This document shows, piece after piece, positions 22,660 to 34,595 of a DNA stretch of 64,000 bases; positions within the stretch are counted from its first letter, which is position 1; every line of letters begins with the position of its first letter. Made by a program: the position numbers and the translations under genes. The DNA lies in assembly GCF_014863545.1 (NCBI RefSeq), contig NZ_CP062260.1:4411001-4475000 (forward strand). Reading direction: 5' to 3'. The notes beneath the pieces were generated by a model, which searched no databases, was not told where the DNA came from, and saw nothing but the letters and a program-made list of their open reading frames with translations. This DNA comes from Paenibacillus sp. JNUCC32 (GTDB lineage Bacteria > Bacillota > Bacilli > Paenibacillales > Paenibacillaceae).

Positions 22660-23793
22660 CTATCGCCTTGCTGCTGCAGCCATATCGCCGATCACTTGCC
22701 TTAGCACAGGCTCAAGCCGGTCCGCCATCAGCTTGAAGCCGAGGTCCGTCGGATGAACCCCGTCAACGGTCGTTTCCCCGGGATCGTCGCCTAACCAATC
22801 CGATCCGTCCACAAACGTTAGGTTATGGTCTCCGGCCACCGTCAGTTCCCGAATGAGCTCTATCTGAAACTTTTTCCGTTCAAGCCGTCCTTCGCGAAAT
22901 TCCGGCATGAACGACTCGGCTCCATGAGGGATGCGGGATACCAGAATGATGGGAACCTCCGGATGGAACTTCCGGTAGGTCTCGATATACCGCGGCAAGG
23001 TCTGACGATAAGCTTCGGTCCCTCCGCAATTCGCCTCATAATCAATCACGAGACAGGCCGGCTCCGAGATTTGGGCGGCCAGTTCGGCAAGCTCAGGCTC
23101 TCCCTTGCCGTTCCCCGAGAAGCCCAGGTTGATAAACTCCAGATGGAGCCTGCGGCTCAGAATGTTCGTATACGACATGCCGGGCCGCGACGCGCATCCG
23201 CCTTGCGTGATGGAGGTTCCGTATATGACCACTCTCGAGCTGGAATCATAGGGCTCCGGCGCAAGGACCTCGGCTCCCGGCTCCATTCCGATCCATATCT
23301 CCTCAACGCCCTGGTATAAGGGCATGTTGAGCAGGAACGAGCGTGCTTTGCGGTCTTCGACAGTGAAAAGGCTGCTCTCATACTCTGCCTGACCTGGCTG
23401 GAAACGGGCGGTTCCTGCATGTTTCCACTCGCCCGGGCCGCCGATATACGCATCCACTCCGCACTCCCCGGTGGGGGGCATATGGTACATGCCGGATCCT
23501 GCCGTCAACCGCACGCGGACGGATACGTTCCGCGAATCCGTTCGGAAGCGGATTTGACCGCCCGATGTGCAGTTCGCAAGCGTATCCACCTCCGGTCGGA
23601 CGGGGACCTCAGGTACGGCGGGCAGCCTGCGATAGAGGCGTTCGGTGTCGAACCAGGCAAAGCCGGATACTCGGAATGGCTCTTCCAATGGGGAATACCA
23701 TAACAATTCGTCCGCTTCGACGTGATCGATCTTCATGTTCTGATCCAATTGAAATGGAGACACCTTTTCAGGTTCAGGGCTATTGTTCTGCAC
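22660..23793 (-). CDS. SGNH/GDSL esterase with N-terminal beta domain (GxDLY plus GDSL-type)
   Basis: 377 residues, no signal peptide. Residues about 25-170 form a beta-rich domain with CGVDAYIGG, resembling the GxDLY domain. The SGNH domain follows: VVIYGTSITQGG (nucleophile Ser), GFSGNGKGEPEL (Gly and Asn), CLVIDYEANCGG, and DGVHPTDLGFKLM (Asp/His). Start is GTG at 23793 with GGGAGG nine bases before. It starts 54 bases after the radical SAM stop with no terminator between, so it may belong to that operon and not to the glycan locus downstream. Substrate unknown; carbohydrate deacetylation or lipid deacylation are both possible. Confidence 0.87.
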   Translation of the reverse strand: MQNNSPEPEKVSPFQLDQNMKIDHVEADELLWYSPLEEPFRVSGFAWFDTERLYRRLPAVPEVPVRPEVDTLANCTSGGQIRFRTDSRNVSVRVRLTAGSGMYHMPPTGECGVDAYIGGPGEWKHAGTARFQPGQAEYESSLFTVEDRKARSFLLNMPLYQGVEEIWIGMEPGAEVLAPEPYDSSSRVVIYGTSITQGGCASRPGMSYTNILSRRLHLEFINLGFSGNGKGEPELAELAAQISEPACLVIDYEANCGGTEAYRQTLPRYIETYRKFHPEVPIILVSRIPHGAESFMPEFREGRLERKKFQIELIRELTVAGDHNLTFVDGSDWLGDDPGETTVDGVHPTDLGFKLMADRLEPVLRQVIGDMAAAARR

Positions 23794-23847
23794 AATGTAT
23801 CGCCTCCCTATGTAAGCTCGAATTGAAGTACATTGCCTTAGAACGGC

Positions 23848-25263
23848 TTATCTGTCCCATGCGGTGGCAACCTCTTCCTTGAGCTCCTTCAGCAGCTCTT
23901 CCTTGTCATCCCGGTAAAACATGTTATAGGTGTCGAACGGGATCATCCGCCCGTCGGGATGCACGATATGCACGCAGGATTTCTTGACGGACCGGACATC
24001 GAAGTTATGGGCATCCAGGAACTGCATGATAATGACCCGGAAGACGTTGTCGTACGTAATCTGCTCCGGCACGGCGGCCAGCGGCAGGCAGCAGAGCAGG
24101 CTCTTCAGGGAAAGCGCCGAGGATTGCGGCGAGTGGCCCGTCGACAGCAGCTCAAACATCTTGCCCCGGATGACCGGGTCCTGTTCGAATACAATCGTGT
24201 TGCTGTCGCCTTCAAGCAGGATTTCCGGGTCGATCATCCGCGTCAGCGGGAGCACTTCCCCGCCCAGCTTCAACGCATAACCCATGGCGAGGCAATCCGG
24301 GTGGCAAGGCACCGGCAGAATGTCCGCGTCCGTAAACACCCCGGACTGATCGATGATCATCCGCCGGACTTCGCTTACGGTCAGGCGATCGGTTGCCGGA
24401 TCATACCCCTCCAGCCGTCCCGCCGCCTGAATCGGCTGAATGGTGACGCCGCGCACCGCCTTTTGCTGAAGCCCGTATTGAATGATGTCGCCGATTTCGC
24501 CGTCATTGAGCCCTTTCTTCAGCGTGACGACCAGCGTCGTGGAGATGTTGAATTCATTCAGGTGCTCGATGGCCTGCCGGCGGATGCGCCGCAAGTCGGC
24601 CCCTCTCAGCTCCTTCAGCACATGTTCCTCAAAGCTGTCGAACTGCAGGTAAATCTCGAAGCCGGGCATATACTCGGCCAGCCTCCGCGCAAAATCGCGG
24701 TCCTGGGCGATGCGGATGCCGTTCGTGTTCACCATGATATGCTTGATGGGACGGCTTTTGCACATATCCAGGATGTCGAAGAAATCCGGGTGCGTCGTCG
24801 GCTCGCCGCCGCTGATCTGCACGATGTCAGGCTCCCCCTCGTTCTCCACAATCCGGTCGAGCATGAATTCGATCTGTGCCAGCGACCGGTAGGAGGTGCG
24901 GTGCGGCGACGATTCGGCGAAGCAGATCGGGCACTGCAGATTGCAGTGATCCGTAATCTCCAGCAGCGTGAGGCAGCTGTGCTGCTCATGGTCCGGACAC
25001 AGTCCGCAGTCGTAAGGGCAGCCGTAACGGATCGGCGTATTCCAGACGAGCGGCATTTCGGACGGCTTGATGAACTTTCGCGTCTGATGGTAATACTCGG
25101 CCTCGGTTGCGATCAGCACTTTTTCCGGACCGTGCACGAGGCATCTTTTGAGCATATACACCATGCCGTTCTCCTCGATGATCTTGGCTTCCACTTTGCG
25201 GTAACAGGTGGTGCATATGCTGTTCGTCAGTTCATGATACAGATAAGGCCGGTTTTTTGGCAT
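23848..25263 (-). CDS. Radical SAM protein of the Tes/MJ0619 type
   Basis: 471 residues. N-terminal metal site SICTTCYRKVEAKI plus KRCLVHGPE; then an auxiliary cluster motif RYGCPYDCGLCPDHEQHSCL; then the radical SAM motif CNLQCPICFAES (CX3CX2C), SGGEPTTHPDFF, and a C-terminal region (CHPDCLAMGYAL, FLDAHNFDVRSVKKSCVH, HPDGRMIPF). This order matches archaeal MJ0619 and the tetraether lipid synthase Tes, which join or alkylate unactivated carbon. AAAGGAG seven bases before 25263 decides the start over 25269. It lies 16 bases after an Lgt-like gene, so a lipid substrate is suggested. Function in this organism is not known to me. Confidence 0.88.
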   Translation of the reverse strand: MPKNRPYLYHELTNSICTTCYRKVEAKIIEENGMVYMLKRCLVHGPEKVLIATEAEYYHQTRKFIKPSEMPLVWNTPIRYGCPYDCGLCPDHEQHSCLTLLEITDHCNLQCPICFAESSPHRTSYRSLAQIEFMLDRIVENEGEPDIVQISGGEPTTHPDFFDILDMCKSRPIKHIMVNTNGIRIAQDRDFARRLAEYMPGFEIYLQFDSFEEHVLKELRGADLRRIRRQAIEHLNEFNISTTLVVTLKKGLNDGEIGDIIQYGLQQKAVRGVTIQPIQAAGRLEGYDPATDRLTVSEVRRMIIDQSGVFTDADILPVPCHPDCLAMGYALKLGGEVLPLTRMIDPEILLEGDSNTIVFEQDPVIRGKMFELLSTGHSPQSSALSLKSLLCCLPLAAVPEQITYDNVFRVIIMQFLDAHNFDVRSVKKSCVHIVHPDGRMIPFDTYNMFYRDDKEELLKELKEEVATAWDR

Positions 25264-25279
25264 AATCATACTCCTTTGG

Positions 25280-26068
25280 TCAGCTTGGAAGACGGGAATC
25301 CGGCGTGAAGCGGCGAATCCGGTTTCTGCCGCCGATCAGCCATGCGTAATAGATGAGGCCCGCGATGCAGGCCAGCTGGATATTGTTCAATCCCAGGTAA
25401 GGATGCGGCGTCGGCTTGATCCATTCGATCGCCAGGCGGAACAGCAGATACCCGGCCATGAACCACTGGAACATTCGTCCGGACACATAGCCCTCGCGAG
25501 TCGATCTGCCGCGGCTTTGGCGGTACAGCGGCATCAGCAGCAGGGCCAGCACGATCAGGAAGAGGATCTCGTACAGCTGAGTCGGGTGGCGATAGATCCC
25601 GTCTCCGAAATCCACGCCCGTGAACCAGGTTGTCGGCGTGCCATAGGTGTGGTCGTCGAGGCCGGTCAGAAAACAGCCGATTCGCCCAAGGCCCAGGCCC
25701 AGCATCAGAGGGTACACGAAATCATCGCCCGTGGAATGCTTCCAGCCCACCCAGCGTTTGGTCAGCTCGACGCCGATCAATCCGCCGAGAAGACCGCCGA
25801 CAATCGTCTTGCCACCCCAGAGGAGATGGAATTGGCGCAGCTGTTCCCAAGTGGCCGCCGGATCCTCAAACCAGTACAGCAGCTTGGCCCCAACGGCAGC
25901 CCCGGCGATGATGCCGGCCAGAAGCTGCAGGCTCATCAGCTTTGTCATGCCGCTCGGCCGACGGGTCCATAAATATACCCGAAAGCCGATAAAGTAGGCC
26001 AGCGATTCAAATAACACATGCGGATGAATCCGCCAGGAGCCCAGGTACAAATAAACAGGAAATTCCAT
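25280..26068 (-). CDS. Lgt-like membrane protein (prolipoprotein diacylglyceryl transferase homologue, altered active site)
   Basis: 262 residues with about seven hydrophobic segments. The Lgt pattern is recognisable: GGLLGGLIGVEL, LGLGRIGCFLTG, RHPTQLYEILF, LLFRLAIEWIK. Key positions differ from true Lgt, though. The SFHGG motif with the essential His is KTIVGG here, and GNFxNxE is GCFLTGL. The Arg of GRIG and the HPxQLYE motif are kept. AAGGAG precedes the ATG. Between the B-box gene and the radical SAM gene it is unlikely to be the housekeeping lgt and may move or bind a lipid group for its partner. Confidence 0.82.
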   Translation of the reverse strand: MEFPVYLYLGSWRIHPHVLFESLAYFIGFRVYLWTRRPSGMTKLMSLQLLAGIIAGAAVGAKLLYWFEDPAATWEQLRQFHLLWGGKTIVGGLLGGLIGVELTKRWVGWKHSTGDDFVYPLMLGLGLGRIGCFLTGLDDHTYGTPTTWFTGVDFGDGIYRHPTQLYEILFLIVLALLLMPLYRQSRGRSTREGYVSGRMFQWFMAGYLLFRLAIEWIKPTPHPYLGLNNIQLACIAGLIYYAWLIGGRNRIRRFTPDSRLPS

Positions 26069-26134
26069 CCGCCCACTCCTTGAATGAAAACTTGAGTTGA
26101 AAATAAGACCTTGTTCGAGTTCGAAACGCGTTCT

Positions 26135-26398
26135 TTAATAGGAAAACAGGATCGTTCCGCAAATCGCGAGCAGCAGCAGCGTAAGCCCGCCCAAGATGGC
26201 TAGTATGGAGACGATCACGGTCACCCATATGTTCCTGGATCGTCCGGGCATGCCGGGAGCGGGGGGCATTTCGCCGCAGCGGTAGCGGCAGCGGCCCGTC
26301 TCCGGATTATGGCATTCGTCGCACACCGGCTTCCCGCATCGCGTGCACTGCGCGGCGGCTGCCCTTTCGGGATGGTTCATACAGCGGTAAAATTCCAT
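26135..26398 (-). CDS. Small B-box zinc-finger protein with one membrane helix
   Basis: 87 residues. Residues 6-41 form a B-box-like zinc site (CMNHPERAAAAQCTRCGKP, then CDECHNPETGRCRYRCGE) and residues 56-82 a single membrane helix (VTVIVSILAILGGLTLLLLAI). GAGGTGA precedes the ATG. It is first of the run that continues with the Lgt-like and radical SAM genes (gap 66 bases). It may anchor or recruit the radical SAM enzyme at the membrane (inference). Confidence 0.78.
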   Translation of the reverse strand: MEFYRCMNHPERAAAAQCTRCGKPVCDECHNPETGRCRYRCGEMPPAPGMPGRSRNIWVTVIVSILAILGGLTLLLLAICGTILFSY

Positions 26399-33581: not shown

Positions 33582-34457
33582 TTAAGCCCCAAACCGCTGC
33601 CGATATCCGCATTTTCTGCATAATTCCTCAACCGCTTCCCGGCGCGAAAATCCGTCCACGAGGTTGTTCGCCCGCTCCCCATCCACGATGTCCGAGAAGG
33701 ACTTCTGATGAAGGTTGCCCAAGTTGATGACCCCTTCCCCGTCCAGACAGCAAGGCACGACCGTCCCGTCTACAAGAATGGCCGCCTGACTGCGCAGCGC
33801 GTGGCAGAAGCCCTTGCCGTCATCCTCCGGGGCAGACAAGCTCGGCCACTGGAACTCATAATCCTGGTTCAGGTAGACGCGTTCGGCTACCCTTACGCCA
33901 CCGCCGGGTTCAACCTTTTCCTCGATGCGGTAGTCCAAATTGAATTCCTGCTCCAACATTTCAAGCGTCTGGCGGTTTCGGCTCTTCTCCAGGTTCGTTT
34001 GGTTGTCCTGCGTTAGGTTCCACAGACGGAACGAGAAGATGACCTTATGTTCCTCCGCATCCCGCACAAAAGAGAGGATGTCCCGCAAATATCCTTCACG
34101 GTCCGTGGAGCCGACATGTCCGTCAAAGCTGTGGAGCGAGAAGTTCATCTGTCTCAACGCCGGCTTGCCCAGCAGCTTATGCCGGTTCTTCGCGATCAAC
34201 GTGCCGTTGGTCGTGATATTGACCTTGAACCCCTTCTCATGGCTGATATCCAGCAGCTCGTCGATCTTCGGATGAAGCAGCGGCTCTCCCTTCACATGCA
34301 GATAAATGTAACTCGTGTGCGGCTTGATCTCATCCAATCTTCTCGCAAAGTCCTCCACTTTAATGAAGTTGGCCTTGCGCTCCGTCGGCGGACAGAACGT
34401 GCAGGCCAAATTACAAATGCTCGTGATTTCTATGTAAACTTTCTTAAACGTCTTCAA
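33582..34457 (-). CDS. Radical SAM/SPASM-type protein
   Basis: About 291 residues. The cluster motif is SICNLACTFCPPT (CX3CX2C) close to the N-terminus, then YLHVKGEPLLHPK and NITTNGTLI, and at the C-terminus a SPASM/twitch-like set (FCHALRSQAAILVDGTVVPCCLDGEG, ELCRKCGY). The TTG at 34457 (LKTFKKVYIEITS) has GGGGAT seven bases upstream; the ATG at 34538 would add 27 residues that look non-coding. No peptide substrate gene is seen nearby, so the target is unknown. Confidence 0.82.
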   Translation of the reverse strand: MKTFKKVYIEITSICNLACTFCPPTERKANFIKVEDFARRLDEIKPHTSYIYLHVKGEPLLHPKIDELLDISHEKGFKVNITTNGTLIAKNRHKLLGKPALRQMNFSLHSFDGHVGSTDREGYLRDILSFVRDAEEHKVIFSFRLWNLTQDNQTNLEKSRNRQTLEMLEQEFNLDYRIEEKVEPGGGVRVAERVYLNQDYEFQWPSLSAPEDDGKGFCHALRSQAAILVDGTVVPCCLDGEGVINLGNLHQKSFSDIVDGERANNLVDGFSRREAVEELCRKCGYRQRFGA

Positions 34458-34595
34458 GATGTTATCCCCAATCCCATGTCTATGATCGTATGACGATTTG
34501 CCAGCTTGCTCGCTTGCCAATCCTTCACATCGTACCATAGGCTGGCATTTACAGCTACAGCTATAAATGGATCTGAGGCCATTCTAATATATAGG

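Follow-up and report, generated by a model that had tools for sequence, protein, structure and literature searches.

Genetic organization of the locus

The window analysed here, a stretch of 64,000 nt of the 7.0-Mb genome of Paenibacillus sp. JNUCC32, includes on its minus strand a cassette of three genes coding for a small membrane protein, a membrane enzyme related to Lgt, and a radical S-adenosylmethionine (SAM) enzyme related to the archaeal tetraether synthase Tes. The first gene (26135-26398) encodes an 87-amino acid protein with a predicted cytoplasmic zinc-binding head of the B-box type, one transmembrane helix, a conserved Cys, and a 7-residue tail, and is the candidate substrate of the system. 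Counting from its open reading frame (ORF), the codon of the conserved residue Cys80 of the terminal helix (LLLLAI-C-GTILFSY), a candidate lipidation site, occupies nucleotides 26159-26161. The second gene (25280-26068), which is the third Lgt-family gene of this genome, codes for a 262-amino acid membrane enzyme with a predicted Lgt fold. The third (23848-25263) codes for a 471-amino acid protein whose assignment to the Tes fold relies on domain, structure, and motif matches; its ATG is located behind the sequence AAAGGAG, and a second in-frame ATG would place the start at nucleotide 25269. Downstream, on the same strand, lies a gene for an SGNH/GDSL esterase that includes PF14606 and PF14607 (22660-23793, GxDLY/GDSL). 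The intergenic gaps between the B-box, Lgt-like, radical SAM, and SGNH genes are 66, 16, and 54 bases, respectively. These positions, gaps, and orientation coincide with those described in an earlier sequence-only reading of the region.

Linkage and distribution of the genes

One genome per species was scanned, and of the 221 encoding stretches obtained the best 80 were taken as the loci for comparison. The closest named loci among them belong to Paenibacillus lautus and its allies, whose radical SAM protein is 98% identical. The radical SAM gene is preceded immediately upstream by an Lgt-like ORF of the same orientation in all 80. The gap between them has a median of 3 nt (range -50 to 162), and the two genes are still adjacent at a divergence down to 71% (radical SAM) and 46% (Lgt-like) identity. 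The hosts include Paenibacillus, Saccharibacillus, Tumebacillus, Brevibacillus, Shimazuella, Neobacillus, Fictibacillus, and Aeribacillus, and one locus (L091) comes from a metagenome-assembled genome labelled Candidatus Methylacidiphilales. A small membrane protein is encoded beside the pair in 80/80 loci when a hydropathy listing, searches with a hand-made, Cys-keyed pattern, and eye checks, including those of six loci missed by the pattern, are combined. An assumption-free clustering of neighbours located within 4 kb on the same strand recovered the radical SAM protein in 75 loci, the Lgt-like protein in 71, and the small membrane protein in 46; the next neighbour family, of the ATP-binding cassette (ABC) ATPase type, was found within that distance in 16.

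Among 245 genomes of the family to which the window belongs, searched at E≤1e-40 (radical SAM) and E≤1e-30 (Lgt-like), the radical SAM protein was detected in 39. The Lgt-like protein was detected in exactly these genomes and in none of the remaining 206, and this co-occurrence has a hypergeometric probability of 3e-46, uncorrected for the relatedness of the genomes. In a set of 398 genomes of the phylum, searched at E≤1e-30 and E≤1e-25, respectively, a relative of the radical SAM enzyme was present in 33 and an Lgt-like protein in four, all of which lie among the five genomes where the best radical SAM match reaches at least 339 bits. Like sets of genes recur in G427, G549, and G646, which represent other families of the phylum. 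The strict linkage and the co-occurrence define the three genes as a conserved cassette. They also bear out the tight linkage noticed in the sequence-only reading, which would have been refuted by a neighbourhood confined to close relatives; this refutation did not occur.

That reading had described a run of four genes. Not all of these neighbours are conserved: the SGNH esterase is an accidental one that adjoins the pair in just 3/80 loci; it was therefore judged to lie outside the cassette and rejected as a member of the pathway. Two further candidates were also discarded: a LacI regulator, with a strong match near the cassette in 1/80 loci and three weak (22-29%) matches elsewhere, and a glyoxalase, with one weak match among the 80 loci.

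In a tree that took in only nine of the 80 named loci, the cassette enzymes fall in a part of 28 rows defined by a split with support 100/99. This part also has members without Lgt (G540, two G427 genes, and L125), one at a contig edge (G662), and ten rows of unknown context. No Lgt gene was found beside other Tes/TrsS-type genes in any of 25 loci (L125-L149, with flanks of mostly 1.5 kb), so the linkage is confined to a single part of the tree. Judging by their names, relatives of the radical SAM enzyme in other phyla include members of the Ignavibacteriales and Deltaproteobacteria.

The distant cassettes differ in composition. Those of G646 and G549 have the same order, consisting of radical SAM, ICMT-like, DUF4395, and Lgt-like genes and then the gene of a small membrane protein that has a Cys close to its end, the G549 genes being named by their likeness to those of G646. 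In G427 the cassette (L155:7442-13645, G427:C39) has, in this order, genes for a small membrane protein, a radical SAM enzyme, an Lgt-like protein, an ArsP permease, a Se/S carrier (PF11823), a weakly kinase-like protein, and a sulfur transporter, the last one being a fusion of Sulf_transp to an ICMT domain, a content that may reflect a supply of sulfur in this distant cassette. The small transmembrane proteins of these three genomes, with a Cys near the end, were identified by eye and are at most candidate kin of the small proteins of the 80 loci. G427 also harbors two tandem radical SAM genes of the 28-row group, with long branches in the tree, located inside a cluster of a FabA-like gene, two ketosynthases, and an acyl carrier protein (ACP), with reductases recognized by eye (L156:2538-14332, G427:C39). 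Next come a gene resembling hydrolases, one for a NifS-rhodanese fusion, and one of the ICMT-like type. This cluster, of the type II fatty acid synthesis kind, is a candidate for the production of an unusual acyl chain and provides a lipid or acyl setting for kin of the cassette enzyme.

The radical SAM enzyme

The enzyme matches the Pfam models Radical_SAM and HMPTM zinc ribbon (PF23545, 58.8 bits). The best NCBIfam models are TrsS (NF045646, 326 bits, cut-off 490) and Tes (NF045702, 282 bits, cut-off 450), and the scores are below both cut-offs. The Tes structure 7TOL was matched by sequence at 8.8e-68, a likeness far beyond chance. The predicted structure, in which residues 354-398 are unreliable, matches the four-domain Tes fold over the whole chain and does so far better than it matches the other solved radical SAM enzymes listed; the next structural matches include the peptide maturases SuiB and SkfB. 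The sequence-only reading had assigned the protein to the Tes/MJ0619 type from the motifs CTTC, CLVHG, CPYDCGLC, CNLQCPICF, FLDAHNFD, and HPDGRMIPF, all of which are present, and had suggested a structural comparison with Tes, with which the predicted model agrees.

Conservation of individual residues was assessed in an alignment of the group of the window (n = 81) and, for the radical SAM enzyme, compared with 120 distant relatives. A rubredoxin-like site C17-C20-C41-H44 (CX2C-X20-CX2H, formed by CTTC and CLVHG), an N-terminal cluster C82-C86-C89 plus a His (H92/H95), and the SAM cluster CX3CX2C (C107-C111-C114) are found in 81/81. The C-terminal domain includes residues C320, C324, C391, C392, C430, and M413, the latter being the equivalent of the labile Met439 of Tes, kept in 80/81. 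The cassette enzyme therefore resembles Tes/GDGT-MAS (MJ0619; 7TOL/7TOM) in its predicted four-domain fold, rubredoxin-like site, N-terminal and SAM clusters, and Met439. It differs from it in the score under the NCBIfam cut-off, in the rearrangement of the C-terminal cysteines, two of which (Tes 455 and 470, numbered from the alignment to 7TOL) are Ser and Asp in the window enzyme, and in the residue equivalent to Tyr459. The latter, reported as conserved in 1000 archaeal Tes (PMC9433317), is Ile (I433) in 81/81 and is never Tyr in the 120 distant relatives. Because of this replacement the cassette enzyme is not considered a true Tes; a further difference is its pairing with the Lgt-like and small proteins in 80/80 loci.

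The resemblance to the radical SAM (seleno)protein TrsS consists of a common domain order and the best NCBIfam score, but identity with TrsS was rejected because the score is well under that of a true TrsS (652 bits) and the two lie across a well-supported split of the tree. The neighbours of that true TrsS gene (L172, G668:C84) resemble, on inspection by eye, a cysteine desulfurase, a protein with the pattern C-GCAxxG-C-C, and an AMP ligase, and they include no Lgt. Another radical SAM gene (CNLACTFC) is located on the minus strand of the window at 33582-34538, about 8 kb off, and has no positional link to the cassette.

The Lgt-like enzyme

The Lgt-like protein is recognized by Pfam LGT (PF01790) with 87.8 bits, the cut-off being 24.9, and obtains 49 bits with the NCBIfam Lgt model TIGR00544, which does not reach the cut-off of 118.9. 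Its AlphaFold model (pLDDT 86.5) has E. coli Lgt (5AZB) as the sole PDB match at E≤0.001 (E 8.7e-7, TM 0.63), and with the Pfam match this supports the Lgt-like partner recognized in the sequence-only reading. Among the Lgt-family genes of the genome the canonical one scores 244 bits, the second 198 bits, and the divergent cassette one 87 bits; the last is far under the cut-offs for Lgt equivalogs, and a canonical Lgt is kept elsewhere in the genome.

The cassette enzyme and E. coli Lgt have in common the predicted fold and four catalytic equivalents kept in 81/81, namely R129 (E. coli R143), E167 (E202), Y207 (Y235), and R211 (R239), of which R143 and R239 were reported to be essential in E. 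coli (PMC4728403). On the other hand, the E. coli signature GRLGNFINGELWG corresponds to GRIGCFLTG with a 3-residue insert in the cassette enzyme, and HGGL to VGGL. The signature motif has been proposed to recognize phosphatidylglycerol (PMC4728403), and a 2026 study assigned the substrate specificity of Lgt to arm-2, His103, and the head domain (PMC13251419). A catalytic centre that appears intact, together with altered residues in the parts responsible for selection, suggests that the enzyme uses a different donor, acceptor, or both. In G155 the cassette Lgt-like gene (G155:C4:37168-37916) is read as two pieces, one of them with an internal stop.

Two interchangeable small membrane proteins

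The window protein matches B-box PF00643 with 24.4 bits, barely above the cut-off of 24.1. The 80 loci include 20 B-box forms, 59 multi-helix forms (46 of them in a BLAST cluster and one located upstream), and one protein of 59 residues with a single helix (L091). The profile of the multi-helix form detected 22 of the 245 family genomes, all within the 39 that have the cassette. In the remaining 17 the pair is accompanied by the B-box form, which ends in helix-Cys-Gly in 17/17, and no genome has both. A genome-wide B-box search (E≤1e-5) also returned 17 genomes, consisting of 16 with the cassette (G155 was missed) and G141, which has no cassette and whose B-box protein is a different one of 207 amino acids without the terminal helix-Cys. 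Because the two forms exclude each other and have little in common but the last helix with its Cys, they are best read, from their sequences, as functional equivalents. The sequence-only reading had correctly placed a B-box membrane protein by the pair, but its role as one of two interchangeable proteins with a terminal Cys had been missed.

The pattern-free counts correspond to 46 and 11 proteins, and to 22 and 17 genomes. In the 46-member multi-helix cluster, built by BLAST with no Cys criterion and with a mean identity of 39%, invariance is limited to four of the 89 columns that are well filled (in order Gly, Gly, Cys, and Gly, the last two as CxG), and the helix Cys and the Gly that follows it are invariant in the 11-member B-box cluster. 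Taken over the 80 proteins, the 10-residue segments that lead into the last hydrophobic stretch contain 205 K/R versus 20 D/E. The distance from the last charge to the Cys has a median of 21 residues (range 7-30), and the tail that follows the Cys a median of 10. By the positive-inside rule this K/R-rich segment predicts an in-to-out helix with the Cys at its outer end, a position like that of the lipobox Cys in the signal peptide of a lipoprotein. One small protein (L082:9403-10176) has 257 residues as it includes a long N-terminal extension ahead of the same multi-helix, Cys-ending part.

Proposed function

The lipid or lipoprotein theme put forward in the sequence-only reading stands as the best reading of the locus. 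The existence of two interchangeable small proteins with a shared Cys in the terminal helix is as suggestive of protein lipidation as of bulk lipid modification. We propose, with a probability of roughly 0.36, that the Lgt-like enzyme attaches a glycerolipid to the Cys of the small protein and the radical SAM enzyme edits the alkyl chains of this lipid. By analogy with Tes, the radical SAM enzyme would work from the cytoplasm on phospholipid tails, where a 5'-deoxyadenosyl radical would abstract a hydrogen atom. The edited lipid would then reach the outer leaflet, and the Lgt-like enzyme, with its phosphatidylglycerol-selection residues changed and the catalytic pair kept, could use it as donor for the Cys thiol. 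Such a reaction would yield a short membrane protein with a non-standard diacylglycerol-type anchor. In a more specific form, which we consider unlikely, this would be a new class of bacterial protein lipidation where a dedicated Lgt-like transferase joins a radical-edited glycerolipid, for example a tail-coupled, membrane-spanning one, to the C-terminal Cys of a micro membrane protein and so produces a lipoprotein tethered across the bilayer.

Several observations weigh against lipidation of the small protein. A flip of the lipid must be assumed, because Lgt acts at the outer face of the membrane and the Tes-like enzyme presumably at the inner one. The equivalent of Lgt N146 is Cys (C132) in 81/81, and for this reason the cassette enzyme is not a true Lgt; N149 is replaced by Thr in 79/81 and E151 by Leu in 78/81, the latter beside the 3-residue insert where the alignment is less sure, and E. 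coli Lgt E151A/Q was reported to be inactive (PMC4728403). Since the second Lgt paralogue of the genome (G000:C1:744145-744861, L010; motif GCLLAGCCYG) also has Cys for N146 and the canonical Lgt is likewise without the His of HGGL, these two changes alone are not, as far as the sequences go, diagnostic of the cassette enzyme. In the radical SAM enzyme, the position of Met439 is occupied by Ser/Thr in 119/120 distant relatives, with one gap, and by Lys in G427. As for the small protein, its presence in 80/80 loci is not an independent proof of the Cys because the search patterns used a Cys. A PS51257-like lipobox pattern fits strictly only 14/80 small proteins, the residue at -1 to the Cys is Ile in 18 of the 80, and we know of no lipoprotein with a hydrophobic tail from the Cys to the C-terminus. 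In G540, the fifth of the phylum genomes with the strongest radical SAM matches, the more distant radical SAM relative has 36% identity, and the search at E≤1e-25 detected no Lgt-like gene.

The main alternative, which is possible but considerably less likely than not, is that the genes serve a pathway for bulk membrane lipids. The radical SAM enzyme would join or alter phospholipid acyl tails, giving products of the tetraether or diabolic-acid type, the Lgt-like enzyme would move head groups or diacylglycerol from one lipid to another, and the small protein would be a mere membrane scaffold. Such a pathway is consistent with the Tes fold along the whole chain of the model, with the reported binding of bacterial phospholipids by Tes (PMC9433317), and with the location of the G427 tandem radical SAM genes within a FabA/ketosynthase/ACP cluster. 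Furthermore, a study that tallied 456 bacterial Tes homologues proposed that they produce branched tetraethers and membrane-spanning lipids (PMC8941075); their activity was reported as unconfirmed as of 2025 (PMC11868695). However, the loss of Tyr459 and of the two C-terminal Tes cysteines argues against it, and the conserved helix Cys and the swap of two small proteins are left unexplained. The iso-diabolic acid lipids made by Bacillota have been attributed to Mss (Thermotoga, Bacillota), reported to keep the Tes catalytic architecture (PMC13274423), yet Thermotoga maritima, the source of the studied Mss (PMC11604127), has no match to the Tes model at E≤1e-20, in a comparison with Mss that is indirect.

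The small Cys protein adjoining the radical SAM gene could instead be modified by that enzyme itself, for example through a thioether formed at its conserved Cys, the Lgt-like protein acting as a helper, in a process like those that produce ribosomally synthesized and post-translationally modified peptides; the presence of SuiB and SkfB among the next structural matches is in agreement with this idea, which we regard as rather improbable. We are slightly more skeptical about a sulfur chemistry, in which the radical enzyme would insert or leave sulfur on the alkyl chain and the Lgt-like and ICMT-like proteins would cap or move the thiolated lipid. Tes has been reported to form a lipid-S-[Fe4S4] intermediate that appears as a thiolated lipid under limiting SAM (PMC9433317), Tyr459, invariant in Tes, is lost in the cassette enzyme, and the Se/S carrier and Sulf_transp-ICMT fusion of the distant G427 cassette and the NifS-rhodanese gene next to the G427 tandem genes point in the same direction. 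Nevertheless, non-cassette gene families are found within 4 kb in at most 16/80 loci, and none of them is a sulfur relay by eye, no domain scan being included. Finally, Lgt paralogues do occur, two others being present in this genome, and the pair could represent chance neighbours or an ordinary spare Lgt located by an unrelated enzyme; this explanation is refuted by the 80/80 adjacency and the 39/39 co-occurrence, and we give it next to no weight.

Among the matches listed in the open-access literature, no title or abstract opening names a radical SAM-Lgt pair. For one group of bacterial Tes-like enzymes two partners are now defined, and in one of these a single conserved residue can be examined, so that the role of these enzymes becomes testable directly by protein mass spectrometry in named isolates. 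If lipidation of the small protein is true, the cassette would link tetraether-type radical chemistry to protein lipidation and would represent a new bacterial route for the attachment and editing of membrane lipids.

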